This document shows, one piece after another, positions 4,257 to 29,202 of a stretch of 58,292 bases of DNA. The translations under genes and the position numbers were made by a program. The DNA lies in IMG/VR virus record IMGVR_UViG_3300030328_005013, positions 1 through 58,292 of that record. One strand, written 5' to 3'. Source of the DNA: a virus. How positions within the stretch are numbered: the stretch's first letter is position 1; every line of letters begins with the position of its first letter. Below the pieces are notes generated by a model. That model saw only the letters and a program-made list of their open reading frames with translations. It did no database searches and was not told the origin of the DNA.

Positions 4257-4790
4257 CTACAAAAGTTCCATAGGGGAACGATATTCTTCGTATGGTAAGA
4301 ACCAATGTTCGCAGGTATTTAGTATATCATACAGTAAAACAGTGGTCATTAAGTCCTCTCTACCCTTCCTCGTATATCCTTTATACAGGGAGTCTTTGAA
4401 ATTTGAGACCTTTTTAGTCCAGTCACAAGTGTGAGCGAGATCAAATAAGTCGTCATTTTTAACACATAAAAAGAAAGCCCCATAGTCGAATGCTATCCAT
4501 GCTGGCTTTTGTTCGCCATTGCACCAGCCCATTTTCCCTTGCACATTCTTTATTTCTAAGACGACTTTACCTTCTTTTTGGGTTTGTTTCAGCCCTTTTA
4601 CGTCAAATCCTACGCCATCAACTACAAAATCAGTATGATTTTTTATATCATCGTGCTGACTGGTTTTCTTTATTTCTTTTCCCGCTGCTCTACAAGAATC
4701 GTAGAATCTTTGTTGACCTTCATGGCCAATATTTATTGATTTTTTAATATGCCCAGCAGATGACATATTTTTAGCTTTGTCTGATATCAT
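4257..4790 (-). CDS. Probable PD-(D/E)XK nuclease-like protein
   Basis: The 177-residue product has the pattern HTDFVVDGVGFDVKG followed by VVLEIKNVQGKMGW. This fits a PD-(D/E)XK fold, with the Asp of TDF and the D-x-K of FDVKG as candidate metal and catalytic residues. A similar block with an N-V-x-G-x-x-GW signature recurs in small phage nuclease-like proteins. It starts in an ATGA overlap with the HAD gene, so it is cotranscribed and probably coupled with the heptose genes, an unexpected place for a nuclease. A non-catalytic member of the fold is possible. Confidence 0.5.
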   Translation of the reverse strand: MISDKAKNMSSAGHIKKSINIGHEGQQRFYDSCRAAGKEIKKTSQHDDIKNHTDFVVDGVGFDVKGLKQTQKEGKVVLEIKNVQGKMGWCNGEQKPAWIAFDYGAFFLCVKNDDLFDLAHTCDWTKKVSNFKDSLYKGYTRKGREDLMTTVLLYDILNTCEHWFLPYEEYRSPMELL

Positions 4791-5128
4791 AAAGTCATTG
4801 ATTTTGTTTCCCCTGTCCTCACATCTGTCATGAAAAAATCCCTTACATTAAATGCCTTGTCGTCTATCCAGTAATCATATGGTGGTTTACCCATTCTTAA
4901 CTCTGTCCTCTTCACCCCCCATTGGTCTAGTTGTTTTTTAGTCAACTCGCTATGATCTACTCCACTATTACCTCCTCTAGCAGTCCAATAAATTATTGTA
5001 TGTCCAGCATCATATAATTGATTAAAAAAATCTATTCTTTCTTTTATTGGTTTCCCTCTGCTATACGGAGTTGTGCGGCTATCGTGTCTACAAATTGTGC
5101 CATCAATATCTACAATGTAAGTTTTCAT
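4787..5128 (-). CDS. Small HAD-family phosphatase, possible GmhB-like step
   Basis: The 113-residue protein has the HAD motifs DIDGTI (nucleophile Asp near residue 7), a TAR motif II near residue 50, and IDDKA (acidic motif IV) near residue 89. It is shorter than classical GmhB (about 190 residues) and lacks an obvious zinc-binding loop. It resembles small HAD proteins found next to sugar-nucleotide genes. ATGA overlaps tie it to the adenylyltransferase upstream and the nuclease-like gene downstream. Removal of the C7 phosphate in ADP-heptose synthesis is the natural inference; a general sugar phosphatase is the alternative. Confidence 0.7.
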   Translation of the reverse strand: MKTYIVDIDGTICRHDSRTTPYSRGKPIKERIDFFNQLYDAGHTIIYWTARGGNSGVDHSELTKKQLDQWGVKRTELRMGKPPYDYWIDDKAFNVRDFFMTDVRTGETKSMTL

Positions 5129-5619
5129 TTTATTTTTTTAATAATATTTGAAGTGCTAGCACCCTCTAAAAGAGGCACTATTCTTACGGCGCTGTTGCCT
5201 TTGGCTTTTAATTCTCTTTTATTTAAGTCCTCTAATTTATAATCCCCTCCTTTGAACCAGAAATCAGGTTCCAGTTCTTTTAATTGTTTTGATACTGTTT
5301 TCGTATCATAAATAAAAACATAATCAACAGCTTCATGACAAGCTACGGTATATGCTCTCTGAGCAGCAGGAATTATTGGGCGACTATCTCCTTTTAGGGA
5401 TTTTACGCTTTTATCGCTATTTACTCCCACAATCAATCTTGAATTGTTACTAGAAGATTCTTTTATAGTGTTTAGTAAATAAGCGTGTCCTGTATGGAAT
5501 AAATCAAAACACCCATTTGTGAAGGCTATAAATTTTTTAATACCGAAAGATTCCATCTGACGAAATTGCTCTCTCTCTTTTAAGATATCTCCAAAAGTAA
5601 ATATTTTTTTATGCTTCAT
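5125..5619 (-). CDS. hldE (C-terminal domain): HldE C-domain-like heptose-1-phosphate adenylyltransferase
   Basis: The nucleotidyltransferase signature TNGCFDLFHTGH contains the HxGH motif. VGVNSD, RPI and the later FKGGDY segment match the RfaE2/HldE adenylyltransferase family. The chosen ATG gives 164 residues: it overlaps the kinase stop as ATGA and has an AAAGGAG Shine-Dalgarno nearby, so a longer frame starting at 5661 is less likely. In enterobacteria this domain is fused to the kinase; here the two are separate genes, as in some other bacteria. It should make ADP-D,D-heptose from heptose 1-phosphate and ATP. Confidence 0.82.
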   Translation of the reverse strand: MKHKKIFTFGDILKEREQFRQMESFGIKKFIAFTNGCFDLFHTGHAYLLNTIKESSSNNSRLIVGVNSDKSVKSLKGDSRPIIPAAQRAYTVACHEAVDYVFIYDTKTVSKQLKELEPDFWFKGGDYKLEDLNKRELKAKGNSAVRIVPLLEGASTSNIIKKIK

Positions 5620-6362
5620 ACTGTCGCGACTCCTTTCTTTCTTATAACCTTTTGGCAGCAATCTTGAGCAAATATAATGGCTGTATTAATTTTTTTGGTA
5701 GAAGTAAATGCATAAGAAAACCCAGCCAGAAAGGTGTCTCCTGCTCCAGAGACATCTCTTATTTCAGAGGGATATTGTATAGCGTAATCTTTATATTTGT
5801 AAGAACAACCTTTTTCTGCTTTTGTTACAATTATATTTTCTGCCATATGTTTCCATCCGTTTTCTAAATATTCCTTTTCATTTATTTTTATAAACGTAAA
5901 TGAATCTGCCCAGTCAATATTGAATTGTTTTTTAGTGTCTAAAAAAGAAAGCCTACTCCTCTTAGCTATTTCCTGAAGATCTGAATCTTTTAGGAATCCT
6001 TTATCGTAATCTGAAACTACAACTGCATCATATTCTTCTATGTTTTCTGGAAGTTCGCCACAATGAGTGTAGCTATCTGTATCTACTCTTAGAAACATTT
6101 GGTTTGATGTCGAATCAATATACCTTGTTTTGTGACCGTTTGCCTCGTTCGTAAATAAATCAATAGTATTGTCAAACGGTATATCTTTTGTGGTTTCTTT
6201 TTCTATGGCTACAAGGTTATTATAAACATTTGTTGCCATTCCTAGATTATTTATACCCTCGCTAGGTATAAATACAGGAGCAGGGGCTTCAGGGCATAGA
6301 CGATCAGCTTTGCCGTAGCAAAACCTATCACTACAAGTTTCTCCTATTACTAGAAACTTCAT
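5616..6362 (-). CDS. hldE (N-terminal domain): HldE N-domain-like PfkB sugar kinase
   Basis: This 248-residue PfkB/ribokinase-fold protein opens VIGETCSDRFCYG and carries the family signature DVSGAGDTF near residue 210, where the final Asp is the catalytic base. VVSDYDKGFL and the K-x-N-x-x-E segment (IKINEKEYL) match the RfaE1 pattern. It is shorter than the ~320-residue kinase domain of HldE, so some surface segments are missing. It sits between the cupin and the adenylyltransferase with ATGA overlaps on both sides. Phosphorylation of heptose 7-phosphate at C1 is the likely reaction. Confidence 0.8.
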   Translation of the reverse strand: MKFLVIGETCSDRFCYGKADRLCPEAPAPVFIPSEGINNLGMATNVYNNLVAIEKETTKDIPFDNTIDLFTNEANGHKTRYIDSTSNQMFLRVDTDSYTHCGELPENIEEYDAVVVSDYDKGFLKDSDLQEIAKRSRLSFLDTKKQFNIDWADSFTFIKINEKEYLENGWKHMAENIIVTKAEKGCSYKYKDYAIQYPSEIRDVSGAGDTFLAGFSYAFTSTKKINTAIIFAQDCCQKVIRKKGVATV

Positions 6363-6730
6363 TGAGAGGCACCCTTTTCTACTCTATAAGAATCTTCGTT
6401 AAAATGTTGAGTGCTGACCTCAAAAACATGAGCATCCTCTAAAGCGGTTAACTTATGGGGTATACAGGGCTTCAAGTGAACCACATCACCCTCCACTAAT
6501 TCTTTCTCTAGCCTTTCAGCTTTCTCTAGATCAAAATATTCTAACTTTAGTTTGCCCTGAGTAACGCACCAAGTTTCTTCTTTTCTTATGTGATAATGCA
6601 TAGAAAAGGATGAACCCTTCTTGAATCTCAATATTTTACCACAATATTTTTCATTGTTGGTAATCCACAATTCATCACCCCAACCCTTAGGGTGTGGTTC
6701 TAAGCGACTAAAGCAAGGCTGTATACTCAT
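6359..6730 (-). CDS. Cupin similar to mannose-6-phosphate isomerase type II
   Basis: The 123-residue single-domain cupin begins PHPKGWGDELWI and has the metal motif SMHYHIRKEETW followed by the second cupin motif around LKPCIPHKL. This matches the C-terminal cupin of type II phosphomannose isomerases, which also occurs as a stand-alone protein beside heptose or capsule genes. It is the first gene of the heptose operon, directly after a strong promoter and without a Shine-Dalgarno. Its exact reaction, such as sugar isomerisation or epimerisation, cannot be told from the sequence. Confidence 0.75.
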   Translation of the reverse strand: MSIQPCFSRLEPHPKGWGDELWITNNEKYCGKILRFKKGSSFSMHYHIRKEETWCVTQGKLKLEYFDLEKAERLEKELVEGDVVHLKPCIPHKLTALEDAHVFEVSTQHFNEDSYRVEKGASQ

Positions 6731-6737
6731 TCAGAGT

Positions 6738-6765
6738 ATTATAGCCTTGTTTATGTAATATTCAA
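6738..6765 (-). promoter_or_regulatory. Consensus promoter of the heptose operon, probably leaderless
   Basis: On the minus strand TTGAAT (6760-6765), a 16-base spacer and a perfect TATAAT (6738-6743) stand 7 bases before the ATG at 6730. There is no room for a Shine-Dalgarno. It drives the six-gene unit that ends at the terminator at 3190-3228. Confidence 0.75.
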
Positions 6766-6770
6766 GGAAA

Positions 6771-6959
6771 TTATTCCCCTTTATCTTTGCTTTTACCGAT
6801 ATTTAAAGCAGCCCAATCAATAAGTGAGTAGACTTTAGCCCAAAAAGTTCCCTTTTTAGGAGTGGGAGTTGCTGCGGTAATAGCAGAGGCGAGAGCAACA
6901 GCAGAAGCTACTACACCCCACCAAGGATTGTCCTGAATCAATTGAATAATTGTGTCCAT
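6771..6959 (-). CDS. Small holin-like membrane protein
   Basis: The 62-residue protein has one clear hydrophobic segment (residues about 14-31, WWGVVASAVALASAITAA) followed by a short Pro/Lys stretch, an amphipathic WAKVYSLIDWAALNIG helix and a charged tail. Similar short proteins occur near lysis genes in marine phages. A second, weaker TATAAT lies at 6965-6970, 5 bases before the ATG, without a recognisable -35. It may be a second holin, an antiholin or a pinholin; no function is proved. Confidence 0.6.
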   Translation of the reverse strand: MDTIIQLIQDNPWWGVVASAVALASAITAATPTPKKGTFWAKVYSLIDWAALNIGKSKDKGE

Positions 6960-7011
6960 AGTAAATTATATGCCTTTTCTATATATTACACTACTCAAAT
7001 TTTGAGGGGAA

Positions 7012-7902
7012 TTATATTCTAGTATACGAATAAGTCCTTCCCATGTCGTATTTTAAAGTATTAAAATACTGCCAACCAAAATCCACCCATGTATTAAACT
7101 CACTAAAACCACTGCTTAATGGGTCAAAACTAGCAGAGTGGAAACAAGGCGGTTCATTTGATTCTTTCATTATTATTTTCTTAGCTATATGAGGATAGCA
7201 ATTAGCTATATGGATAGGGCCGCTATTTATTCCAATAAAAATAGAACTTTCTGATATGGTTTTTACTGTATCCCAAATTTTCAAGCCTCTCTTATCTGTA
7301 AAAGGAGACGAGTTATCTGTTTTTGCGCCCACTTGTATTATATTGTAATTAGCATACCTTTTAGCTATAGTTTGCAATACTTCGTCGGGTATGAATTGTA
7401 ATTTACAATTATTACTTGGCCCAACATGTATTGTTATTTGGTCTGGCTTAACACCAAGGGGGTCTTCGTGTTTATATAAACGTGGACCTCTTGGTAAACA
7501 TAGATCAGGTCTTGTCCAGTCTTGTATGCCTAGCGTTTTATAAAACCATCGAGACCTACTATAGCACCCCAATTGATTTGGAGGGTGCCATAAGTTAATT
7601 ATTTTAGTTTTTTGACGGGGTGTCGGAACTTCAACTGGCTCAACCCAATCGTGAGGCTTGCAATACACAGCGGGATACCCGTCAATATTTTCATTAGTTT
7701 CAGCATTTTTAAAACGCAAAGGTCTTATTTCATCTGGGTGAAAAAGTCTGCGAACGTATGGATTTCTATCAAAAACCCAACATCTATGAACATCTATTAA
7801 TTTTACTCCATACCACTTATAAAACGCTTCGGGTATGCAAGAGTATTGAACCTTGTCACCAATTCCTACTGCTCCCCTTAAATCTATACCTATATTTTTC
7901 AT
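7012..7902 (-). CDS. GT9-like (heptosyltransferase-type) glycosyltransferase
   Basis: The 296-residue protein has a two-lobed GT-B plan. The N-lobe begins IGIDLRGAVGIGDKVQYS, the usual GT9 phosphate loop region. The C-lobe has IIQVGAKTD, and then DTVKTISESSIFIGINSGPIHIA, matching the GT9 sequence in which a Ser-Gly-Pro-x-H-x-A loop binds the nucleotide sugar. GT9 members commonly use ADP-heptose, and this genome carries the genes to make it. The start overlaps the previous stop as TAATG. Acceptor unknown. Confidence 0.72.
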   Translation of the reverse strand: MKNIGIDLRGAVGIGDKVQYSCIPEAFYKWYGVKLIDVHRCWVFDRNPYVRRLFHPDEIRPLRFKNAETNENIDGYPAVYCKPHDWVEPVEVPTPRQKTKIINLWHPPNQLGCYSRSRWFYKTLGIQDWTRPDLCLPRGPRLYKHEDPLGVKPDQITIHVGPSNNCKLQFIPDEVLQTIAKRYANYNIIQVGAKTDNSSPFTDKRGLKIWDTVKTISESSIFIGINSGPIHIANCYPHIAKKIIMKESNEPPCFHSASFDPLSSGFSEFNTWVDFGWQYFNTLKYDMGRTYSYTRI

Positions 7903-8195
7903 TAAGACAGATCCAAAGAATCAGGAGCGATTTCCTCTAACTCTTCACATATTCTATCTATCTCATCAGGCATCATGTGCCTAGCGCAGTTCCTAAGCTT
8001 TGTCACCTCCCACTCAAACTTGCAGAATTTATCATCTTGAGTTATATTTTTCTTTTCTTTGCTATCGTAAATAAATGTGTCGAAAACCTCGTATCTTAAA
8101 GGGTCGATGCATTTTTCGATAGGATCGAATGTGGAGCGACTAGTGACATAATCAAAGATGTCATACCTACTTACTTTAATTTTGACTTTTTGCAT
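7902..8195 (-). CDS. Protein of unknown function coupled to the GT9 gene
   Basis: This 97-residue, charged, soluble protein begins MQKVKIKVSRYDIFDYV and ends in an acidic helix (DEIDRICEELEEIAPDS). I recognise no family. Its stop overlaps the GT9 start by one base, so the two are probably made together. The upstream 44-base gap holds an inverted repeat at 8201-8226 and AT-rich -10-like elements but no convincing Shine-Dalgarno. Confidence 0.6.
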   Translation of the reverse strand: MQKVKIKVSRYDIFDYVTSRSTFDPIEKCIDPLRYEVFDTFIYDSKEKKNITQDDKFCKFEWEVTKLRNCARHMMPDEIDRICEELEEIAPDSLDLS

Positions 8196-8200
8196 TAGAG

Positions 8201-8226
8201 TCTAATATACGAGATTATATATTAGA
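8201..8226. promoter_or_regulatory. Inverted repeat upstream of the 97-residue gene
   Basis: Nine-base arms TCTAATATA (8201-8209) and TATATTAGA (8218-8226) flank an 8-base loop, five bases before the ATG at 8195. On the minus strand it overlaps a TATAAT sequence, so it could be an operator or an mRNA hairpin. It has no T-run of terminator type. Confidence 0.4.
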
Positions 8227-8239
8227 TTTTAGAAAAAGT

Positions 8240-8860
8240 CTAGACAATCCTAATTCTGCTCCTGATTTTTGAAACGTGCCTTTTCTTTTCTAAGACAGAG
8301 CCGCCCTCCCTGCTTCCAGCACCGTTTGTGTTACCTTCAATAGTAACTACATAACCACTTGAGTCTGCGTCTTTTACAGCTAATCCAATATGAGAAAAAG
8401 TAAATACAACGATATCACCTGCTTTAATATCTTCGTTTGTAGGTTTGCGGAGTTCCACGCCTTTTGTGCTTTCTTGTTTAGCCCAGTTCTCAAAATCCCA
8501 AGCTCCAGCGGTTCTCGGTCTTTTGAATGCTACATCCTCTCCTTCAATAGCCTCTCTAACTAACCAGCAAATAAAAGCAGCGCACCAAGGCCAACCTTTG
8601 TCTGCGTCTAGCCATGTGGCAGCTTTGTATTCATCTACTCTTGGCCCACAATTACTGCCGTCAACTTCGGAGACTCCTATTTCTTCTCTCGCTAAGGACA
8701 CCATTTTCTCTGCTACACTCCCACCAGAAGCAGCAGGTTCTTTGGTCGATAGCTTTGCTAAAATAGCATTCCAAGTTACAGGACCATCGGCACCATCAGC
8801 AGAAACCCCGAGAAGCTTCTGCACTGCTTTTACTACTTCTTTCTTGCCTCTAAAATTCAT
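8240..8860 (-). CDS. Endolysin: peptidoglycan-binding domain plus CHAP-like domain
   Basis: The N-terminal ~35 residues (EVVKAVQKLLGVSADGADGP then VTWNAI) match the PG_binding_1 fold. After a linker comes a CHAP/NlpC-type cysteine peptidase or amidase domain: catalytic Cys in GWPWCAAFICW, His in FSHIGLAV, and an acidic residue in TIEGNTN. There is no signal peptide, so export should depend on a holin. The start at 8860 is favoured because AGGAGG lies 8 bases upstream and the ATG overlaps the previous stop (TAATG). Length about 206 residues. Confidence 0.87.
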   Translation of the reverse strand: MNFRGKKEVVKAVQKLLGVSADGADGPVTWNAILAKLSTKEPAASGGSVAEKMVSLAREEIGVSEVDGSNCGPRVDEYKAATWLDADKGWPWCAAFICWLVREAIEGEDVAFKRPRTAGAWDFENWAKQESTKGVELRKPTNEDIKAGDIVVFTFSHIGLAVKDADSSGYVVTIEGNTNGAGSREGGSVLEKKRHVSKIRSRIRIV

Positions 8861-9465
8861 TACCCACACCTCCTACTAAACCCAGCACATATTGACATAA
8901 CAACTGATAATACGATAGCTAAAATCATAAAGTCGCTGTATTCTTTAATTTTAATGTTTAATAAATCAGACTGTTCCTCATTATAATACATTTTTGTATC
9001 CATAATATTGTTGATCGCACCAATTGTAGGGTCAGTCATTTCATACATTTTAGGAACTGATGACTTAATCATTTCAATATTATTTGTGTTACCCCATTCA
9101 ATTAATTGGTTAACATAGATATTTATTTTCTTCTCTTGCTCAAAAACAAACTCAGCATACTCTACTTCTTTAGGCGTTATATCTTTTTTATAACCTTGTA
9201 AATACTCATCCTTATACACCCTCTCTTCTTCTAAAATTTCTACCATTTCTGCGGGTGTGATTACTCCATGAGAAGTTTTTACTACTGAGTTTACTATAAT
9301 TACTCCATACCAATCAAAGCACATGCCTATTTCCATAATGGAAGACTCTGATTGTCGAGCATTCTCTTTTAGTGTGTTTTGAATATCTTCCGTAAGGCTT
9401 AACCCTTTGAAGCCAAAGGCTAAACAAATAGCGGCTAAACAGTATACAATAAACTTTGGTCTCAT
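8860..9465 (-). CDS. Two-TM protein with a helical extracytoplasmic domain
   Basis: Residues about 5-22 (FIVYCLAAICLAFGFKGL) and about 178-196 (MILAIVLSVVMSICAGF) are membrane segments. They flank ~150 mostly helical, polar residues. The layout resembles the four-helix ligand-binding modules of chemoreceptor-type proteins but without any cytoplasmic signalling part. It is coupled by overlaps to the holin upstream and the endolysin downstream, so a role in lysis timing or superinfection control is an attractive guess. No known holin, antiholin or spanin motif is visible. Confidence 0.65.
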   Translation of the reverse strand: MRPKFIVYCLAAICLAFGFKGLSLTEDIQNTLKENARQSESSIMEIGMCFDWYGVIIVNSVVKTSHGVITPAEMVEILEEERVYKDEYLQGYKKDITPKEVEYAEFVFEQEKKINIYVNQLIEWGNTNNIEMIKSSVPKMYEMTDPTIGAINNIMDTKMYYNEEQSDLLNIKIKEYSDFMILAIVLSVVMSICAGFSRRCG

Positions 9466-9779
9466 TTTTTAAGAAATTTTTCTGGGTTCTTAGCAAATTT
9501 TTCGCCCATTCTTACTATCCCACTAATAACCTCTGGGCTTATTACGCCAATAATACCGTAAGTAATCGCCTTAGTTAAAGATGATACGTCAGTTTGTTCT
9601 AAAACAAACCAAGCAATGCCAGCAGCTAGGGCCGCTGTAATCACCCTTTTAAACTGTTGTTTAAGCGTTAATCCATTATTACCTGATAAGAGCCTAGCAA
9701 ACATCGCAGCAGCGCCTACAAGCGGGACTAACCAACCTCCACTGAGGAATTCTTTGATTAAAGACTTTTCAGGTTCCAT
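9462..9779 (-). CDS. Putative holin
   Basis: The 105-residue protein has up to three hydrophobic segments (about 15-32 WLVPLVGAAAMFARLLS, 46-63 ITAALAAGIAWFVL, 70-90 ITYGIIGVISPEVISGI) and a basic tail ending FAKNPEKFLKK. This resembles class I phage holins of the LydA/Phage_holin type. Its ATGA overlap with the next membrane protein, and the endolysin after that, support a lysis cassette. A TAGAAT stands 8 bases before its ATG, but no -35 is visible because a terminator occupies that place. Confidence 0.72.
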   Translation of the reverse strand: MEPEKSLIKEFLSGGWLVPLVGAAAMFARLLSGNNGLTLKQQFKRVITAALAAGIAWFVLEQTDVSSLTKAITYGIIGVISPEVISGIVRMGEKFAKNPEKFLKK

Positions 9780-9796
9780 GTAATTACATTCTACAC

Positions 9797-9827
9797 AAAA
9801 AAAGCCACCCGTGCAGGTGGCTTTTTT
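9797..9827 (-). terminator. Strong intrinsic terminator between barrel and holin genes
   Basis: GCCACC (9804-9809) and GGTGGC (9816-9821) form a 6-bp GC-rich stem with a 6-base loop, flanked by A-runs and T-runs so that it can act in both directions. It ends the transcript of the outer-membrane barrel gene. Confidence 0.9.
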
Positions 9828-9852
9828 ATTTTATAATTAAAAGTAATTTAAA

Positions 9853-10545
9853 TTAGAACTTGTAAGAGACTCCTGCTCCGACAGACCACTCGTTATCTAA
9901 GCTATATGCGCTAGAAGAATCGAGGTCATTGTCGTTATAAGCGCCTTTTACAAAAACAGAAGCACCGTCTGTAATTTTATAAGCAGCAGCTAGACCTGCC
10001 TCAAGAGCAGTGTATTCATCAGCAAGATTAAGTCCGACAAAAGGTGTCAACACAAGACCTTCTACTGGAGTAGCAATGTCGCGAGAGAGAATGAACTCTA
10101 CGCCATAAGAGCCACCAGAACCTCCTCCAACTTCATGCCATGCAGTTGCTGTAAGATCTGCAAGAGTATGGCTATAAGTAAGACCCACTCCAACTTCGTC
10201 CCAGCCTCCAAAGGAAGAATCAACCCTTTGAAAATAAAACTCAGCCCCGAGGTCTTGGCCAAGAAGAGTAACCCCCCTTGAGTAAGCAAGGGAGATGTCT
10301 TGTTCGTATCCCTCGTCAACGTCAAAGATGTCGATACCGACAGAAGCAGTGCCTCCAGCTTTTACTGGGGCAGAGAGTGTAAGTGAATAACTAAAAGCGT
10401 CATCCCTAATGCCAACTCCTCCGCTAGTCGAAAGAGTGCTATATGAAACACCACCTTCTACAGAGACATCTGCCAAAGTGGTTGCTTTAACTGCGCCAAC
10501 CATAGCAGCGCCCATAAGTAGTGTTGTAAGAATAAGTTTCTTCAT
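9853..10545 (-). CDS. Outer-membrane beta-barrel (porin-like) protein with signal peptide
   Basis: The N-terminus MKKLILTTLLMGAAMVGAVKA is a classic Sec signal peptide, with cleavage probably after AVKA. The mature ~209 residues alternate polar and hydrophobic residues in repeated strands (for example VSYSTLSTSG, VGVGLTYSH, VGAGVSYKF). The protein ends in Phe, the usual recognition signal for barrel assembly in Gram-negative outer membranes. Length suggests about 8-12 strands. It is a single-gene unit with its own promoter, a palindrome in the promoter spacer, and a strong terminator. Phage-borne porins are known to replace host receptors; that role is inferred here. Confidence 0.8.
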   Translation of the reverse strand: MKKLILTTLLMGAAMVGAVKATTLADVSVEGGVSYSTLSTSGGVGIRDDAFSYSLTLSAPVKAGGTASVGIDIFDVDEGYEQDISLAYSRGVTLLGQDLGAEFYFQRVDSSFGGWDEVGVGLTYSHTLADLTATAWHEVGGGSGGSYGVEFILSRDIATPVEGLVLTPFVGLNLADEYTALEAGLAAAYKITDGASVFVKGAYNDNDLDSSSAYSLDNEWSVGAGVSYKF

Positions 10546-10551
10546 GAGATT

Positions 10552-10580
10552 AATATATATTACAGAATTGTAATGGTCAA
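10552..10580 (-). promoter_or_regulatory. Promoter of the outer-membrane barrel gene
   Basis: On the minus strand TTGACC (10575-10580), a 17-base spacer and TATATT (10552-10557) lie 6 bases before the ATG at 10545. No Shine-Dalgarno is present, so the transcript is probably leaderless. Confidence 0.7.
10559..10574. promoter_or_regulatory. Palindrome filling the barrel promoter spacer
   Basis: ATTACA (10559-10564) and TGTAAT (10569-10574) are inverted around 4 bases and lie exactly between the -10 and -35 elements. That is where a repressor or spacer-binding activator would sit. No regulator gene for it is recognised in the window. Confidence 0.5.
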
Positions 10581-10608
10581 GGGAAAAATTATCCAGAAAT
10601 AAGGAAAA

Positions 10609-10824
10609 TTAAACAGCTTCTACAGCCTCTAGAGGCTCAGCAAATTCAGGGCTAACCTCCTGTGTGATAGGAGTGTTATCAATGCCTCTGGCAGCTTGCT
10701 TGATTTTAGTGGCTAACACTAATGCGTTTTGTGCTACATTTAGTCCTTGTGCTCTTACGGCTACATCTAAAAGGCCAATAAGTGCATTCATTTCCTCGTC
10801 GGAGAATTCGATTGTAGTATTCAT
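10609..10824 (-). CDS. Small protein of unknown function
   Basis: The 71-residue product is largely helical (FSDEEMNALIGLLDVAVRA..., then ALVLATKIKQAA) with an acidic C-terminus rich in Glu and Pro. There is no signal peptide or membrane segment. It resembles short conserved proteins scattered through marine phage genomes, but I cannot assign a role. It has its own promoter and no Shine-Dalgarno, and it precedes the barrel gene. Confidence 0.6.
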   Translation of the reverse strand: MNTTIEFSDEEMNALIGLLDVAVRAQGLNVAQNALVLATKIKQAARGIDNTPITQEVSPEFAEPLEAVEAV

Positions 10825-10833
10825 ATATGCAAT

Positions 10834-10861
10834 ATTATAAATTAATAATACAAAAAATCAA
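10834..10861 (-). promoter_or_regulatory. Promoter of the 71-residue gene, probably near-leaderless
   Basis: On the minus strand TTGATT (10856-10861), a 16-base spacer and a perfect TATAAT (10834-10839) lie 9 bases before the ATG at 10824. The -35 overlaps the stop of the upstream gene. Confidence 0.65.
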
Positions 10862-11142
10862 GGCCAAGTTACAAAATGTGTTTGGCCTGTATAGGAATAT
10901 CCTGCGTTGTATGGAGCCAGAAATAAACCTGTGGTTTCCCAGATGCCAGACATTATGTCAACCTTCCTGTTATACTCCCTCATATCATGATACGCCAAAT
11001 CCATACCCTCAAATCCTGTGATACCAGATCCACTTAAGAAACGCCCTGTCAATTCAGCACGATAAACCTGCCAAACCCCACTACCTGTAGCTGTTTCGGA
11101 GTGGATTTGACCTCTAAGTGGACTGCCTTCTTGATATGCCAT
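10858..11142 (-). CDS. Small virion-like protein of unknown function
   Basis: The 94-residue protein is rich in Gly, Tyr and Thr, with segments such as GSGVWQVYRAELTGRF and GYSYTGQTHFVTW that suggest short beta strands. It is soluble with no signal peptide. It lies between the lipoprotein gene and the 71-residue gene, 25 bases after the lipoprotein stop. The [ST]-G-aromatic motifs echo the tail proteins at the right end of the window, so a structural role is possible. Confidence 0.55.
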   Translation of the reverse strand: MAYQEGSPLRGQIHSETATGSGVWQVYRAELTGRFLSGSGITGFEGMDLAYHDMREYNRKVDIMSGIWETTGLFLAPYNAGYSYTGQTHFVTWP

Positions 11143-11167
11143 TACTAGAATCTACACTTAAAAGTGT

Positions 11168-11437
11168 TTATTTCCCGCTAGGAAAATAAAGCTGTCTCTC
11201 TAAGCGTCTAAATCTAGCATCAGAATGCCAGACTTCATTTTGTTGTGGAGTATAGATTCCTTTACTTGTCTCGATTGGAGTCCCTTTTGTCAAACTGAGA
11301 GTAGAAGGCTGATAGATGTTTAAAGGAGTTGTCTTCACGGATGAGTTCGTCGCGCAAGAGATCAGCACGGTCGGGATCACCGCCAATAGCCCTAATATTC
11401 TCAAGTTCTTGAATAATTCTTTCTCTTTCTTCTTCAT
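11168..11437 (-). CDS. Lipoprotein, candidate outer-membrane spanin (Rz1-like)
   Basis: The 89-residue protein begins with a basic n-region (KKKEKELFKNLR), a hydrophobic core (ILGLLAVIPT) and the lipobox VLISC, so processing at Cys near residue 28 is expected. The mature part is short and polar. Its first 176 bases overlap the preceding 88-residue gene in another frame, the arrangement known for Rz/Rz1 spanin pairs. Position near the holin and endolysin fits. It is less proline-rich than lambda Rz1. Confidence 0.7.
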   Translation of the reverse strand: MKKKEKELFKNLRILGLLAVIPTVLISCATNSSVKTTPLNIYQPSTLSLTKGTPIETSKGIYTPQQNEVWHSDARFRRLERQLYFPSGK

Positions 11438-11528
11438 GGTCTCTTTTTAATTGTAAATAGAAAGTCTTATTTTTTAAAGATAAAAATAACTCAATTGATT
11501 TTAAAACAGATTTAATTAAGGAAAGCAT
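11262..11528 (-). CDS. Coiled-coil protein, candidate spanin partner (Rz-like)
   Basis: The 88-residue product starts with an amphipathic stretch (MLSLIKSVLKSIELFLSL), followed by a highly charged helix with heptad character (QLKRDHEEERERIIQELENIRA) and a DRADLLRDELIRE segment. It resembles short Rz-like proteins in podo- and siphophages. A true N-terminal membrane anchor is not obvious, since Lys and Glu interrupt the hydrophobic run, so the i-spanin call is tentative. It overlaps the HldD gene by 17 bases and hosts the lipoprotein gene in a different frame. Confidence 0.55.
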   Translation of the reverse strand: MLSLIKSVLKSIELFLSLKNKTFYLQLKRDHEEERERIIQELENIRAIGGDPDRADLLRDELIREDNSFKHLSAFYSQFDKRDSNRDK

Positions 11529-12357
11529 CTATGTTCTCTTCTACATAATCCTCTACACTTTTCCAGTTATATTCGCCGATTATTTCGGTAATTTTAGAAT
11601 TATCAGCTTTAGTTAATTTTTGATATTGGCCTTTCAGTTCTTTCGGCATTGGTATTTGTTTTATACTACAATTGCATCGTGATTTAATTATTTCTGCTAC
11701 ATCTCTAAAAGAAATAGCATTTCCTGTCCCTATATTAAAAACACCTGAAGCATCTGAGTTTAAAAGCTTTACATGCATTTCGCAAACATCTTCAACAGAA
11801 ACAAAATCTCTTTTATATTTCTCACTTTTATCAAAAATTTCTATCTCGCCACTCCTCTGGGCTTGGTTAATAAACTTAGAGACAGGACTAGCTTGCTTGC
11901 CTTTTTTATCTTCCCCCAATCCATAAACATTAAAATACCTTAATCCTTGGTAGGGGTAATCTTGATTCATTAGCCAACAATCAAAGATGTATTTACTAAA
12001 TGCGTATGGGCTAAGTGGTTTACAGAAATCAGTTTCTTTAAAGGTTTTGGAATCACCATAAACAGAGCCACTGCTAGCATATTGAAACTTAACGTCATAA
12101 CCCTCACATAACTCGTAAAGCATTACTGAAAACTCAAAATTCTGTTTTAGAATTTTTTTAAGGTCTTTTTCCGTAGTTGATGAATTTGCCCCCAAATGTA
12201 TTACGACATCTTGACTGCCTACATCGGGAATTGCATTTGGATCGCCTTTATTTATGTCAAATCTTGTAACATCGTATCCACGATGTTCCAAGTATGAGCA
12301 CAAATTGCCACCTATGAACCCTCCAGAGCCTGTTACTAGTATTCTATTCAGAGTCAC
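11512..12357 (-). CDS. hldD: ADP-L-glycero-D-manno-heptose 6-epimerase-like (HldD)
   Basis: This short-chain dehydrogenase/epimerase has the NAD(P)-binding motif TGSGGFIGGN near its N-terminus. It also has HldD-specific features: GANSSTTEKD, the SGSVYG loop with catalytic YAFSK, NVYG, the KYKRDFVSVEDV segment and PMPKELKGQYQKLTKAD. The last two closely follow the pattern I know from Escherichia coli HldD. I prefer a GTG start at 12357 (281 residues), which puts the Rossmann motif at the right distance and overlaps the upstream gene by 14 bases. The open frame extends to 12465 and the start is not certain. It completes the ADP-heptose route. Confidence 0.85.
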   Translation of the reverse strand: MTLNRILVTGSGGFIGGNLCSYLEHRGYDVTRFDINKGDPNAIPDVGSQDVVIHLGANSSTTEKDLKKILKQNFEFSVMLYELCEGYDVKFQYASSGSVYGDSKTFKETDFCKPLSPYAFSKYIFDCWLMNQDYPYQGLRYFNVYGLGEDKKGKQASPVSKFINQAQRSGEIEIFDKSEKYKRDFVSVEDVCEMHVKLLNSDASGVFNIGTGNAISFRDVAEIIKSRCNCSIKQIPMPKELKGQYQKLTKADNSKITEIIGEYNWKSVEDYVEENIDAFLN

Positions 12358-13301: not shown

Positions 13302-13469
13302 TTAATCTTGGTTATCAAATCGACCTTCCATTTTCTTCCAGAAAACTTCTGGTCCGAGAGCATTATACTGCGACTTCAATCGCTTGTAAAGGTTTTTTTG
13401 GATTGGATTGGCATTTTTTTTGTCATATCCAATTAATCTACGGATTTTTTTAGCTACTGAACCACTCAC
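13302..13469 (-). CDS. Small basic protein (55 residues), GTG start
   Basis: A clean frame begins at a GTG that overlaps the stop of the ClpA-like gene by four bases (GTGA) and ends 5 bases before the next ATG. It fills the gap exactly. The product is basic and helical, with segments AKKIRRLIGYDKK and QKNLYKRLKSQYNALG, and ends in EGRFDNQD. Gap-filling, coupling and amino-acid character argue for a real gene. A DNA- or RNA-binding role is only a guess. Confidence 0.6.
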   Translation of the reverse strand: MSGSVAKKIRRLIGYDKKNANPIQKNLYKRLKSQYNALGPEVFWKKMEGRFDNQD

Positions 13470-15814
13470 GCAATATCATCGCCTTTTGTTTGTTTTTTGT
13501 CAACAAAAAGTTTTATATTTTTGTCTCCTTTTAAAGTTTTATCAGATATATATGGTGTTATTTGTGATAATATCTTTTTATTTAAGGCTTCTGTTTTGTT
13601 TTTAGCTTTGCAAATTTGCTCAGTAACCCTCTTTATATAATCAAAATCAAAGTTTAGATAAATATCATTATCTTCTAACCTGTTTTTTAGTCTTTTTAAT
13701 TTCATCCACAACAGTCTCCGTAGATCTTTTTCAGTGAGTTCTTTTAGGATAAAATAATCATCTATTTGTGATAAAAGCTCTGGGTGAATCATTAGATTGT
13801 TTTTACCTTCACCTGCTGCTTGAAATCCCATAGAGGATTGGCTGCTTGACAGAGAGCATGTCAAAAATATTTTACAGTTTGAAAAATCTGCGATATCCCC
13901 ATTGGTCATTTGGAACCTCCCATGCTTGAAGATTTGACTGAAAATAGCGATTGAGGAGTTGTCTATCTTGTGAAAGTCATCAATAATTAAAACGCTATTA
14001 GGGGTGATATTTATTTTTTCACATATTGATGTATTTGTTCCCTGCGAAGAAGCTATTTTATGTGGAGCGAAATTATCGGAAAAATGCACACCACTGTAAG
14101 ATAAAACATTTATACCTCTTTTTTGAAGAGAGTCTTTTAGCAAGTCTAGAAAATAAGACTTACCGCTAAAACTAGAACCACTAACTACAAAGCAATCAGG
14201 TGATGAAAAATTATCAGATTTTTTTAATCCTAAACCAGAGAGAATTAGTTTTTCTTTAAGATTATTTAAGAAATCTCTTTGACCAACTAAGCTTTTAGAT
14301 AAGCATTTAAATAACTTGTCTATAGTATCTTTGTTGCTTAATGGGTTCTTCTTTTTATCAAAGAAATCTTTTAAATGCTTAAGTTTTACTATAGGTGTTT
14401 TATCCTCAACCCCTTCTGTCCATTTCTCTAAGCTGGCATTTAGCTTTTCTAGTAATTCTGCGTGATCTTTCTCAGGGTCAAGCGCGGCCTTAACTGTCTC
14501 AGTTTGTATGGCCTTTATCGAAGGTGTAACGTGCCAAAAATTAACTTTAGCTTGAGCACCACAATGATCAATTACGTCTATAGCTTTATCTGGGTAAAAC
14601 TTATTGGGGATATATTTTTCACAATATTCTATTATATTATTTAAGAATCTATCACTATACTCAACTGCATGAAACTCTTCGTAATATGATACAATAGTTG
14701 GAAGGATTTCTTCCATCTGGAATTTAGATGGTTCTTTAATTATAACTCTCTCAAACCTCCGATCTAATGCAGTATCTTTTTTTATCGTATTTGTATATTC
14801 ATTAATTGTTGTAGCGCCTATGCAACTTATTGTGCCTCTAGCAAGTTCTGGTTTGAGTATATTAGAAGCTTCTAGTGAATTATTTGTCGCTCCTCCTGCC
14901 CCTATTAAGGTGTGAACTTCGTCTATGAAGAGAATTAAGTTTGAGTATTGTTTAGCTTCATTAACAAAATCCTCTAATCTTTTCTCAAACTGCCCTCTGT
15001 ATTCAGTGCCAGCGACCATGCTAGATAAACTAACAGAGTATATTACTTTATTTGCTATAAGTTCTGGAGCATCTCCAGCAACTATTTTAGCCGCTAACCC
15101 TTCTACTAGAGAAGTTTTTCCCGTTCCCGCTGGGCCTACCAATATTGCGTTCGGTTTTTTCTTTCGACAAAGAATCGTAGCCAGTTCATCAATTTTCCCA
15201 TCGAAATCAACAATCTTATCAAACTCCTTATTTAAAGCTTTTAAGTTTAAGTTTTCTGCAAATTGACACAAAATTGGATTCTGCTCAAACATGTCTATCC
15301 AGTGTTCTGGAGTTTCGACATCTGCTTCTAAAGGACCAAAGGTGTCATCAAATTCAAGATCTTTTATTCCTAAGGAACATTCTGTTATGAACCCTAAAAC
15401 TGTAGCGTCTGATTTATCGTCTTTTTCAGGGTAAAGCTCTTTAATTACTTTAGGAGAATGAACATTATCAAAAAAAGTCATTAAGATTATTTCTGGGGGA
15501 ATATAATCTAAGTCAAAGCTTTCTTCAGCTATGCCTTCAGCAGTTGCTAAAAGTTTTCTAACATCTGTTTTTACAGTTCTTTTTACATTTTTATTTTCTC
15601 TTTTTTTACTTAAGCAATGCCTAGATTCTTTGAGCCATTCTTTTGGATCTATATGAACCCTCTTGAAAATAGAAGAGCAAGAAAGACTTAAATCGCTTAA
15701 GAAGCAGTGAAAAAATAAATCAATGTCTACCCCATTCCTTTTTAAGATGACGGATAGGTCTTGAGATTTTTCTAAAACTCCCTCTATGTGGGGTGTCAAA
15801 GGAAGTTTAGTCAC
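13466..15814 (-). CDS. ClpA/ClpB-like double AAA+ unfoldase
   Basis: The 782-residue protein has an N-terminal region with Clp_N-like helices (around residues 85-130). AAA module 1 shows Walker A GPAGTGKTS near 227, Walker B LILFIDEVHTLIGAGG near 293, and an Arg finger in DRRFER near 351. AAA module 2 shows Walker A GSSFSGKS near 545 and a variant Walker B LIIDDFHK near 608. SSMGF near 660 falls where ClpA has its ClpP-binding IGL loop. Start is GTG with GGGAGG upstream and an 8-base overlap with the polymerase gene. It could unfold proteins for host ClpP or remodel replication complexes; both are inference. Confidence 0.85.
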   Translation of the reverse strand: MTKLPLTPHIEGVLEKSQDLSVILKRNGVDIDLFFHCFLSDLSLSCSSIFKRVHIDPKEWLKESRHCLSKKRENKNVKRTVKTDVRKLLATAEGIAEESFDLDYIPPEIILMTFFDNVHSPKVIKELYPEKDDKSDATVLGFITECSLGIKDLEFDDTFGPLEADVETPEHWIDMFEQNPILCQFAENLNLKALNKEFDKIVDFDGKIDELATILCRKKKPNAILVGPAGTGKTSLVEGLAAKIVAGDAPELIANKVIYSVSLSSMVAGTEYRGQFEKRLEDFVNEAKQYSNLILFIDEVHTLIGAGGATNNSLEASNILKPELARGTISCIGATTINEYTNTIKKDTALDRRFERVIIKEPSKFQMEEILPTIVSYYEEFHAVEYSDRFLNNIIEYCEKYIPNKFYPDKAIDVIDHCGAQAKVNFWHVTPSIKAIQTETVKAALDPEKDHAELLEKLNASLEKWTEGVEDKTPIVKLKHLKDFFDKKKNPLSNKDTIDKLFKCLSKSLVGQRDFLNNLKEKLILSGLGLKKSDNFSSPDCFVVSGSSFSGKSYFLDLLKDSLQKRGINVLSYSGVHFSDNFAPHKIASSQGTNTSICEKINITPNSVLIIDDFHKIDNSSIAIFSQIFKHGRFQMTNGDIADFSNCKIFLTCSLSSSQSSMGFQAAGEGKNNLMIHPELLSQIDDYFILKELTEKDLRRLLWMKLKRLKNRLEDNDIYLNFDFDYIKRVTEQICKAKNKTEALNKKILSQITPYISDKTLKGDKNIKLFVDKKQTKGDDIA

Positions 15815-25520: not shown

Positions 25521-26498
25521 TTAGACTTCTTTTTCCCAATATGAAACCATATCATGGACTAAACCTTTAAAATCAAATTTTGGTTTCCAATTAAGAGCTT
25601 TTCTTGCCCTAGTGGAGTCTCCTTTTAATACAGCGAGTTCCTCTGGTCTCATGAATTTTGGATCTTGGGATACATAATCTTTATAATCTAAGTCAAAATA
25701 TCCAAAAGCTTCTTTACAGAAATCTCTAACAGAGTGGCTTTCTTTAGATGAAATAACAAATTCATCTGGCTCATGATGTTGCAGCATCAAATGCATCGCT
25801 TCAACATAATCTTTAGAATGACCCCAATCTCTATAAGCGTCTAGGTTTCCTAAAACTAATTTATCTTTTTTACATGCTGCGATCTCTGCGACTCCTTTGG
25901 CAATTTTTGCCGTCACGAAGTTTTCTCCCCGTCGAGGAGATTCATGATTAAAAAGAATTCCATTAGATGCAAAAAGGTTGTATGAGTTCCTGTAGTTTCT
26001 CACAATGCAGTAAGCTGCTAGTTTGGAACATCCATATGGGCTAACAGGTTTCATGTTTGTGGTTTCCCTCTGGAAGCCGTCTTCGTCTATCTCATTGCCA
26101 AACATTTCTGATGAGCTAGCTTGATAAAATTTAGAATCAGGGCAAGAAAATCTATACGCCTCCAAAAGATTTAAAGTTCCTATCATGTTTGTTTGCAAGG
26201 TAAACTGAGGAACATCGAAACTAACTCTAACGTGACTTTGGGCAGCTAAATTATAAATTTCATCAGGTTTAATTAATGCCATCAACCTATTCAAAGACGA
26301 GGCATCAAGTAAATCAGCATAGTCCGTTTTAACCAACCCTTTACCTACTAAATGATCTATTCTGCTCTCTTGAGTGCTTGCTAAGGAGTGTCTACGAATA
26401 AGACCGTAAACATCATAATCTTTTTCTAGCAAAAGCTCCGCTAGATAGCTCCCATCCTGTCCTGATATTCCCGTTATAAGGGCTTTTTTCTTTTTCAT
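25521..26498 (-). CDS. gmd: GDP-mannose 4,6-dehydratase
   Basis: The 325-residue short-chain dehydrogenase has ITGISGQDGSYLAELLLEK at the N-terminus and YNLAAQSHVRVSFDVP. SSSEMFG then precedes the catalytic YGCSK, and NHESPRRGENFVT follows. These are hallmark segments of Gmd. It converts GDP-mannose to GDP-4-keto-6-deoxymannose, the precursor of GDP-fucose, GDP-rhamnose or GDP-perosamine. Gmd is known from several cyanophages. A GDP-fucose synthase is not seen in this window, so the next step must come from the host, an unrecognised gene, or outside. Confidence 0.95.
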   Translation of the reverse strand: MKKKKALITGISGQDGSYLAELLLEKDYDVYGLIRRHSLASTQESRIDHLVGKGLVKTDYADLLDASSLNRLMALIKPDEIYNLAAQSHVRVSFDVPQFTLQTNMIGTLNLLEAYRFSCPDSKFYQASSSEMFGNEIDEDGFQRETTNMKPVSPYGCSKLAAYCIVRNYRNSYNLFASNGILFNHESPRRGENFVTAKIAKGVAEIAACKKDKLVLGNLDAYRDWGHSKDYVEAMHLMLQHHEPDEFVISSKESHSVRDFCKEAFGYFDLDYKDYVSQDPKFMRPEELAVLKGDSTRARKALNWKPKFDFKGLVHDMVSYWEKEV

Positions 26499-26506
26499 TT
26501 TAATTA

Positions 26507-27169
26507 TTAAATATTCTTAGGAATGAATAAGTAAGAAAAGGTTTCATTCTTTTGTGGGTTAAAGTCATCGTCTAAGCCTAGTATTATTGGATCTTCCCAT
26601 AGCCTATCAGGGTCTTTCCAGTTAAATTTTTTTACAATGTATGGATGTTTTTTTAAACTATTCCAATCAAAGCCTCCCTCTTGAGGAAATTTAAAGGTGG
26701 GAAACCAAGTATGCATTTCAACATAAAAGAAAGTTTTACCTTTTTCCAAAATAGACTCTATCGTTTTAAAAAACAAACTTTCAAAGCCTTCAATATCTAC
26801 TTTTATAAAATCTGGAAAGGGCAAGTCCTTCTCTTTCATGTAGCTACCTAAAGAACGAGCACCCCTTTGATTTTCAACGATAATTTCTTCGTCATCATTG
26901 TCGCTAAGAGCGATTCCATGATAATCAATATTAGAAAACTCTTTGGTGTAATCTTTTAATTGCTCAAAAAGAAATGGGACTGGCTCAAAAGCGTGAACGT
27001 GCTTGGCTACTTGGCAGAAATATTCGGACATCCACCCAGTATGTGCTCCCAAATCATATACAATGTGGTCTTTTTGTATATAGTCCTCATAAATATTCCA
27101 CTCATCGTAAGAATCGGTCTCGGCTGGCCCGTTTCTTGTCTTAAACTTAATCTCCATTTCCATTTCCAT
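26507..27169 (-). CDS. FkbM-family methyltransferase (first copy)
   Basis: The 220-residue protein has the SAM motif VYDLGAHTGWMSEYF, then VHAFEPVPF and PDFIKVDIEGFESLFF, the FkbM-family signature. The N-terminus reads MEMEMEIK, so three ATGs are possible; the first is given because the promoter is close. FkbM enzymes typically O-methylate sugars or other small molecules. It lies between gmd and a radical SAM gene in the glycan island, so sugar methylation is the reasonable inference. Confidence 0.85.
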   Translation of the reverse strand: MEMEMEIKFKTRNGPAETDSYDEWNIYEDYIQKDHIVYDLGAHTGWMSEYFCQVAKHVHAFEPVPFLFEQLKDYTKEFSNIDYHGIALSDNDDEEIIVENQRGARSLGSYMKEKDLPFPDFIKVDIEGFESLFFKTIESILEKGKTFFYVEMHTWFPTFKFPQEGGFDWNSLKKHPYIVKKFNWKDPDRLWEDPIILGLDDDFNPQKNETFSYLFIPKNI

Positions 27170-27183
27170 TTTTAAATTTAATT

Positions 27184-27212
27184 ATATTAATAATGAAATG
27201 TTTAAATGTCAA
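27184..27212 (-). promoter_or_regulatory. Promoter before the FkbM and gmd genes
   Basis: On the minus strand a perfect TTGACA (27207-27212), a 17-base spacer and TAATAT (27184-27189) lie 14 bases before the ATG at 27169. That leaves a leader of only about 7 bases and no Shine-Dalgarno. Confidence 0.65.
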
Positions 27213-27219
27213 ATATACT

Positions 27220-28428
27220 TTAGATAAACTCTTTGTGTATTATTGTCTTCTGCAATTCTTCCGATTGCTTAGATAGTTTGTCTTTATATTCTGACCACTC
27301 AGAGGCACTTAGTTCTTCATGTTTTTTGTAGATGTCCCAAACAGCTTTATTGCTTTCGTGTGGTTTGCATAATTTAGTGCAATTTTTAAAACACTCTACA
27401 TTTTCAATTGTATTCATGACTTCTCTTCTAGAGATTAAATCATTCCAGATATCTTTAAACGATTTATCGTCATACAAACAACCATAGCTATATTGTTTCC
27501 ACCCTCTATGATTAGTGCATACATACACATGACCATCAGCACCAACACAAGGTGAAATTTGAGACCCCAAGCATTTTTTATAATTCCTACCAAATTTTTC
27601 TCTGTCCATAGCTAGGTCTTCTAGCTTATAACCATTTACCTGAAATTTATTACCCAAGATTTCATTAGCCTCGTCTAATAAGGGTTGAACTTCGTCTCTC
27701 CAAAACTCTATGTCTCTTTGTTGCCCCCCGTCTTCTCGGATAACAATTTCAGGCTTATATTGACAATAAGTTACGTTAATATTTTCGAAAAACTTAGCAA
27801 AATCAACTATGCCGTGGTAGGTGTCAGGAGATATTACATAGCCAACTCCTATATCAATTTTATTTCCTTTTAATTCATTTACTCTAATTAATTCTTTTAC
27901 ATTAGAAACCATTCTGTCCCAATTAGCTCCCCCTTTTGGGCTTCTAATTTTGTCGTATTCTTCTGCCGTCCCAGTATCTATTGAAACTCTTACCCATGAC
28001 ATATTATCTACCAAGGTTTCAAATAAATCTTGCTTATCCAGAAGAGTGCCATTTGTAAACATGCCCATTTTAATACCATGCTTACCGCAATAAGTGATAG
28101 CTTCTTTTAAGTGTCTATTTAGTGTAGGTTCTCCTCCTCCAGTCCAGTTCACTGCCCTAACCCCCATTTCAACAAAGTCCTCGCATAAGCTCATTAGCAT
28201 GTCTCGGGGCATCAAAGCTCTGGAAAAAGCCTCTGTGCCTTTATATTTGTTGAAATGTATATAAGAAGATAAGCAAAATGAGCAAGCGTGATTACAAGAG
28301 TTGCTAGGATCTACCTCTATTAATACAGGCGCTGTATTGCCAGTCTCAACAAACTCAACAACCCTGTCTGCGTTTGCATAAACCTTAGATTGAGGGTCAA
28401 ATATAGCTGATTTTCCATATTTCTTCAT
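27220..28428 (-). CDS. Radical SAM enzyme with SPASM-like C-terminus
   Basis: The 402-residue protein has the CxxxCxxC cluster motif CNHACSFC (near 46-53), then WTGGGEPTL and VRVSIDTGTAEEYDKIR. These are radical SAM core motifs. The C-terminal part has Cys at CLGSQISPC, VYVCTNHRG and CFKNCTKLC, fitting SPASM-type auxiliary clusters. Substrates of such enzymes are peptides or sugars. Its place between an FkbM methyltransferase and a GT2 suggests a sugar or glycan substrate, but a peptide modification of a virion protein cannot be excluded. Confidence 0.85.
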   Translation of the reverse strand: MKKYGKSAIFDPQSKVYANADRVVEFVETGNTAPVLIEVDPSNSCNHACSFCLSSYIHFNKYKGTEAFSRALMPRDMLMSLCEDFVEMGVRAVNWTGGGEPTLNRHLKEAITYCGKHGIKMGMFTNGTLLDKQDLFETLVDNMSWVRVSIDTGTAEEYDKIRSPKGGANWDRMVSNVKELIRVNELKGNKIDIGVGYVISPDTYHGIVDFAKFFENINVTYCQYKPEIVIREDGGQQRDIEFWRDEVQPLLDEANEILGNKFQVNGYKLEDLAMDREKFGRNYKKCLGSQISPCVGADGHVYVCTNHRGWKQYSYGCLYDDKSFKDIWNDLISRREVMNTIENVECFKNCTKLCKPHESNKAVWDIYKKHEELSASEWSEYKDKLSKQSEELQKTIIHKEFI

Positions 28429-29202
28429 TTATATTGATAAGTCGTTTTCTACTTGTTCTGGATAAACAAAAATTTCATTTTTAGCTAAGTTTACTACTTT
28501 TTCGTGGTAATCTTCGTCTCTAGTTTGACAAGCGTTCCTTGAATAATACACGTTAGTAAGATCATCAAGGTCAATTTTTTTAAAAGCAGTGCCAAGCCTT
28601 TGCATAAATTCTGTATCCTCTTTAAATCCCATCGGGTTCTCTTCCCACGGCAACCAATATCCAATTTTATTAACAACTTTTTCTATGCTATGAGCTATGC
28701 GTAGCATATCGGGATATTTGGTTATAAAATTTACAGCTTCTTCGTCACGATTGTAGTAGAGTAAATTTAATTCATTTTCAAGACCTTTGTTTATAATTTC
28801 TTTTATTAAAAAATTGCCATTTCCTAAGTGAAAATGAAACCCAGAGGTTGATATATAATCAAATTGTCCTTTTTGATGTTCTTCGTAGATTACTCTAAAA
28901 TGATTGGGTAAAAATATATTATCATCACACAAGTAAGTTATGATATCTGAATTTGCATTTTCTAATCCATAATTAACTCCAACTGCCCCAACATTTTTAA
29001 TCCATTTATTTGGATTCTCTACAAATATTATTCTAGAATCATTCTTAAAGTAATTTTCGTAGACTAAGCTAGCCTTAGGGCAATGGTCTGAAAAAATTAT
29101 ACACTCCCAATCTTCAAATTCTTGTAACTGAACAGACTTGATCGCTCTAGCTAATAAATCAGGTCTATGATAGGTCGGTATTATGGTGGTTATTTTAGGC
29201 AT
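28429..29202 (-). CDS. GT2 family glycosyltransferase
   Basis: The 257-residue protein starts ITTIIPTYHRPDLLARAIKSV, the GT-A/GT2 nucleotide-sugar motif. It has WECIIFSDHCP, then ENANSDIITYLCDDNIF, where the DD is the metal-binding DxD-like element. No membrane segment follows, so it is soluble or peripheral. It is directly coupled to the radical SAM gene and to the DegT-like gene. Donor and acceptor are unknown. Confidence 0.82.
   Translation of the reverse strand: MPKITTIIPTYHRPDLLARAIKSVQLQEFEDWECIIFSDHCPKASLVYENYFKNDSRIIFVENPNKWIKNVGAVGVNYGLENANSDIITYLCDDNIFLPNHFRVIYEEHQKGQFDYISTSGFHFHLGNGNFLIKEIINKGLENELNLLYYNRDEEAVNFITKYPDMLRIAHSIEKVVNKIGYWLPWEENPMGFKEDTEFMQRLGTAFKKIDLDDLTNVYYSRNACQTRDEDYHEKVVNLAKNEIFVYPEQVENDLSI

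Follow-up and report, generated by a model that had tools for sequence, protein, structure and literature searches.

Heptose genes in phages and the cupin among them

Heptose genes are already known in phages. T4-GCs 304, 305, 307 and 308 are found together in P-SSM2, S-SM2 and S-SSM7, where, as lipopolysaccharide (LPS) genes, they were suggested to be possibly linked in function (PMC3037559), and rfaE has been reported in pelagimyophages (PMC7029224). The IMG/VR virus record IMGVR_UViG_3300030328_005013, analysed here in its entirety (58,292 bases; the window), carries genes of the same kind, among them one for a small cupin that is the main subject here. What is new is the testable proposal that this cupin is a second kind of GmhA, the isomerase of the bacterial ADP-heptose pathway; no published tie between a cupin and the GmhA step was found in the open-licence literature.

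Four overlapping minus-strand genes at 4787-6730 encode the cupin, a PfkB kinase, an HxGH nucleotidyltransferase and a small HAD, with operon-like overlaps between neighbours that range from a few bases to a few tens, and so lie together as the original prediction had it. The separate HldD-like gene that it described is also present. The features relevant to the pathway are:

6359-6730, minus strand: metal-binding cupin (PF07883, 2e-7), proposed from active-site match and genomic context as a sedoheptulose-7-phosphate isomerase replacing GmhA
5616-6362, minus strand: compact HldA-type heptose-7-phosphate kinase of the PfkB family, 248 aa, GAGD motif (TIGR02198, 3e-29; PDB 4e84, a heptose-7-P kinase, 2e-10; PHROG_8133, 2e-63)
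5125-5661, minus strand: HldC-type heptose-1-phosphate adenylyltransferase, GCFDLFHTGH motif (TIGR02199, 6e-40; PDB 5x9q, 6e-20; a single protein with the kinase in viral relatives)
4787-5128, minus strand: small HAD phosphatase, by family searches EcbF/BcbF-like and PHROG_1238; candidate heptose-1,7-bisphosphate 7-phosphatase replacing GmhB
11512-12357, minus strand: HldD-type ADP-heptose 6-epimerase (TIGR02197, 3e-67; best PDB match E. coli HldD, 1eq2, 1e-41; cyanophage GC308 relatives)
7012-7902, minus strand: GT9-like protein, a tentative candidate heptose user (weak hhalign match to GT9, E 2.7e-4, 41% probability)

Together these genes probably specify a phage ADP-heptose route in which the cupin serves as the isomerase of the GmhA step. 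It would convert sedoheptulose 7-phosphate to heptose 7-phosphate, from which the HldA-like kinase would make heptose 1,7-bisphosphate; the small HAD would strip the 7-phosphate, the HldC-like enzyme would adenylylate the resulting heptose 1-phosphate, the HldD-like enzyme would epimerise C6, and at least one GT9-like transferase would add the heptose to a glycan of the host surface or virion, either being a plausible site of use. More generally, it is likely that the cupin represents a class of sedoheptulose-7-phosphate isomerase that is non-homologous to GmhA and has so far gone unrecognised, found in many aquatic phages and some Patescibacteria with fusions to HldA or HldC, and that the ADP-heptose pathway of these viruses is self-sufficient.

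Divergent members of heptose enzyme families

Roles for the kinase, adenylyltransferase and HldD-like protein are predicted from homology. Profile hidden Markov model searches with them name heptose families, as expected by the original prediction, at scores below the curated NCBIfam cut-offs (102 versus 345, 136 versus 181 and 227 versus 275 bits, respectively), and the three are therefore regarded as divergent members. Many viral relatives have the kinase and adenylyltransferase joined in one compact HldE, one such protein (L131) matching HldE at 2e-104, and HldD and the small HAD travel with them in other viruses, all of which supports an ADP-heptose reading of the locus. The original prediction had taken cupin, kinase and adenylyltransferase together as a split HldE; the latter two do correspond to its halves, and the cupin drops out of that comparison since HldE in the relatives consists of kinase and adenylyltransferase only.

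The small HAD, of 113 aa, has a match to EcbF/BcbF-like proteins that is below cut-off (23.6 versus 162 bits), and the Cys zinc motif of GmhB type is absent from its sequence; its gene position is what suggests that it may substitute for GmhB. That the HAD is not GmhB-like, that the kinase is some 70 residues shorter than HldA, and that the phage proteins score under the heptose-family cut-offs could together indicate that the whole cassette makes some other activated sugar with a repurposed kinase and nucleotidyltransferase. Such repurposing is scarcely credible when it is specifically HldA, HldC and HldD, and not other PfkB, nucleotidyltransferase or SDR families, that the proteins match best, when relatives have the HldE-like fusions, and when orthologous cupins stand beside canonical HldA, GmhB, HldC and HldD.

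The active site of the cupin

Residues H45, H47, K50, E52 and H92 of the cupin are invariant in all 91 aligned cupins (HxHxxKxE...H). D-lyxose isomerase TsLI binds its metal through H75, H77, E88 and H143, with E88 proposed as proton shuttle and K86 as stabiliser (PMC8378251). The five cupin residues correspond to TsLI H75, H77, K86, E88 and H143 with identical K-x-E spacing, and a YCxK motif is common to the cupin and YdaE (2y0o). The reaction of GmhA takes a ketose to a manno-configured aldose with the stereochemistry of D-lyxose/D-mannose isomerase, and because of this an isomerase assignment is chemically preferred. The AlphaFold2 (AF2) model is confident (pLDDT 94.5) and has a cupin fold, with Foldseek matches to lyxose isomerases and archaeal phosphomannose isomerases. 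Profile matches include D-lyxose, L-ribose and mannose-6-phosphate isomerases, and for PF07385, of D-lyxose isomerase type, the window cupin just reaches the cut-off (20.9 versus 20.8 bits) with the cyanophage copies below it.

Resemblance to cupin phosphomannose isomerases in both fold and profile searches, the GDP-mannose dehydratase gene at 25.5 kb, and the type II MPI reported in cyanophage S-SCSM1 (PMC9602691) would fit a cupin that isomerises mannose 6-phosphate or another sugar phosphate for the second glycan island of the window and is next to the kinase incidentally. Its fusion partners are however HldA and HldC with no mannose enzymes among them, it accompanies the heptose cassette across phages, and S-SCSM1 is not among the 35 phage records that the cupin matches, so a mannose role is very unlikely.

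Viral co-occurrence and the absence of GmhA

Fusion, gene position, co-occurrence and the active-site match make the cupin the best candidate for the isomerase. Of the 80 top-ranking viral kinase loci, 47 have both adenylyltransferase and cupin, seven adenylyltransferase only, three cupin only and 23 neither (p 5e-11, a value that, like the other viral statistics here, is inflated by the relatedness of the viral loci to one another). Kinase-only viral loci, most of them also without adenylyltransferase, probably belong to another pathway. Two viral contigs (L136 and L153) have the cupin fused to HldC.

A TIGR00441 search detected no GmhA in the window, in the complete genomes of six cassette-carrying cyanophages or among 25 viral records (36-364 kb in length), and no SIS-type open reading frame is present in any fetched viral locus. 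The original prediction, of a near-complete pathway with GmhA alone missing, was thus correct as to the absence of GmhA from the window, while the gap itself is in effect probably filled, with the cupin as best candidate.

GmhA from the host might also supply the isomerase, with the cupin then having another role in the pathway such as a later epimerisation of ADP-heptose (RmlC-type, at C3/C5, as in Campylobacter) or that of an anomerase. Cupin epimerases do exist in heptose pathways (PMC7949155). GmhA is encoded elsewhere in some cupin-bearing cellular genomes (G002, G006, G008). The metal site and lysine of the cupin are, however, complete and invariant, and RmlC-type epimerases are not known to have such a site and lysine. 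With the LPS of marine Synechococcus reported to be without heptose (PMC4377996), host supply is moreover doubtful for the cyanophage cassette. Given also that in Patescibacteria without GmhA the cupin stands next to HldA where GmhA would be, and is fused to HldA as well, a host-supplied isomerase is considered unlikely.

The cupin in Patescibacteria

Support for the cupin acting at the GmhA step comes also from cells. A Parcubacteria genome (L178) has the order GT9 - cupin - HldA - HldC::GmhB - HldD, in which HldA, GmhB and HldD are canonical and above their cut-offs. One Patescibacteria operon (L290) reads cupin-HldA-GmhB-HldC and two others (L292 and L293) GmhA-HldA-HldC. Cupin and HldA form a single protein in three Patescibacteria (G478, G598 and G498), and in a fourth (G525) the fusion is in the reverse order, HldA::cupin. 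G478 and G525, each a single contig covering the listed genome size, are without GmhA, the search giving only a GlmS-sized SIS protein of 644 aa in the first and nothing in the second. In genomes G066 and G278, of the same class, GmhA occupies the cupin's spot directly before HldA.

Of 286 genomes of that class, 10 have HldA and three a strong cupin, and all three of the latter are among the former (p 3e-5); since cupin and HldA are on different contigs in G005 and G111, linkage alone is insufficient to account for their co-occurrence. Transketolase, a source of sedoheptulose 7-phosphate, is encoded in seven of the eight genomes with both cupin and HldA. Strong GmhA is present in none of these eight as against four of seven HldA-positive genomes that are cupin-negative.

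Several points weigh against an isomerase role. This mutual exclusion of GmhA and cupin reaches only p 0.026, and a SIS protein scoring 90 bits is encoded in G598, one of the genomes with a cupin::HldA fusion. The cupin occurs without HldA in the cellular genomes G011, G001 and G445, both GmhA and a strong cupin are absent from three HldA-positive Patescibacteria (G056, G090 and G193), and in 14 of 80 viral cupin loci there is no kinase nearby. Cupins are versatile, with quercetinase, CapF and oxalate decarboxylase likewise among the top fold matches, and because quercetinase and CapF match as well, the fold alone is undecisive as to function. The isomerase activity is itself a prediction from sequence and gene context.

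More distant Patescibacteria cupins, namely 331 aa NTP-transferase fusions, NeuB fusions and forms of about 145 aa, were regarded as separate subfamilies. In L204, L206 and L214, from Patescibacteria, cupin domains related to this one are joined to proteins resembling sugar-nucleotide transferases and NeuB, from which it appears that the broader family also has a part in other sugar pathways.

The cyanophage cassette and its labels

In tblastn searches of isolate phages the window kinase matched 33 records, nearly all of them cyanophages. The same five genes are clustered in P-SSM2, S-SSM7, S-CAM3 and P-TIM68, and the five gene families occur together, as judged by profile matches, in the window and in viral loci L005-L008. 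The labels that these genes carry are misleading. On reading its sequence, the 'phosphoheptose isomerase' GC306 (PHROG_1238) is the small HAD, with no SIS match, and can be dismissed as the missing GmhA; the isomerase gene listed for SynMITS9220M01 (PMC7378029) may be the same small HAD. GC307, a 'putative nucleotidyltransferase', and PHROG_7851, a 'cysteine dioxygenase', are the cupin. The misannotation is systematic, extending through PHROG_1238, PHROG_7851 and T4-GC 306 and 307 in GenBank.

Glycosyltransferases and the wider genome

Two further features bear on use of the heptose and a third on the mannose alternative:

44891-46594, plus strand: GT1-type glycosyltransferase (PF00534, 1e-4) whose C-terminal end, judged by eye, resembles the N-terminal half of GT9
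46591-47715, plus strand: C-terminal half of a GT9 domain with a tail of no assigned kind (PF01075, 1e-8; hhalign 95%; conserved ATGA junction)
25521-26498, minus strand: GDP-mannose 4,6-dehydratase (TIGR01472, 1e-119), part of the second glycan island and given for context

Of the two GT9-type transferases originally proposed, the split one near 46.6 kb held up. The PF01075 match (35 versus 22 bits) and the hhalign match (E 2.5e-8) are both confined to the C-terminal half of the domain. The ATGA overlap that splits the domain (46585-46595) is kept in seven relatives, which rules out a sequencing error, and the halves could be joined by stop-start coupling or frameshifting. The proposal fared less well for 7012-7902: there is no match to it in Pfam, NCBIfam or PHROG, a PDB profile search was also empty, and its AlphaFold model is of low confidence (pLDDT 37).

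The second glycan island (25521-37931) also has genes for a GalE-like epimerase, GT2/GT4/GT11/GT25-like transferases, FkbM methyltransferases, a DegT-like aminotransferase and a radical SAM protein. The last, of 402 aa (27220-28428), is similar to a 401 aa protein (5630-6835) in a glycan cluster of L172, a contig that resembles phage DNA although its assignment is to a Prochlorococcus cell. The cupin of L172 adjoins a UvsX-like gene and was discarded as a cellular copy as it looks phage. At 13466-15814 the window encodes a ClpA/B-like ATPase of 782 aa (PHROG ATP-dependent protease family, 4e-102). Replication genes of tailed-phage type encode a DnaE-type polymerase, a DnaB-like helicase, a UvsX-like recombinase and a class I ribonucleotide reductase; isolates offer no close relative of the polymerase (28-29% identity to the nearest), which points to an uncultured lineage.

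Antibacterial development has GmhA among its targets, and the ligand that ALPK1 recognises is ADP-heptose. If the cupin acts as proposed, a second and unrelated GmhA would be defined and the only gap filled in a pathway that many aquatic phages carry; a virus could then bring the whole ADP-heptose route with it, even into hosts such as marine Synechococcus, whose LPS is said to be without heptose. The labels propagated for PHROG_1238 (the small HAD) and for PHROG_7851 and T4-GC 307 (the cupin) would also be corrected.

Comparison with known systems

With the archaeal cupin phosphomannose isomerases 7zvy and 7zvm the phage cupin shares a small single-domain form (TM-score about 0.8 by target length) at about 21% identity; we know of no link between them and heptose genes. 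The D-lyxose/D-mannose isomerases YdaE (2y0o) and TsLI (7nzo) have in common with it the metal ligands and lysine (HxH...KxE...H), the YCxK motif and the cupin fold, but are only some 20-25% identical and are longer (170-220 aa versus about 120), and the substrate expected for the phage enzyme is a seven-carbon sugar phosphate. The T4-like cyanophage LPS cassette T4-GC 304-308 (P-SSM2, S-SSM7, P-TIM68, S-CAM1 and S-CAM3) is alike in having adenylyltransferase, kinase, small HAD, cupin and HldD, though enzyme roles had never been assigned to it in the present manner; the window phage is of a separate lineage, with a DnaE-type polymerase and another gene order, and its kinase and cupin are 33-44% identical to the cyanophage counterparts. 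Kinase, adenylyltransferase and epimerase are shared, by homology, with the bacterial ADP-heptose pathway (GmhA, HldE or HldA/HldC, GmhB and HldD), from which the phage differs in having neither a SIS-type GmhA nor a canonical GmhB, with the cupin and the small HAD in their places.

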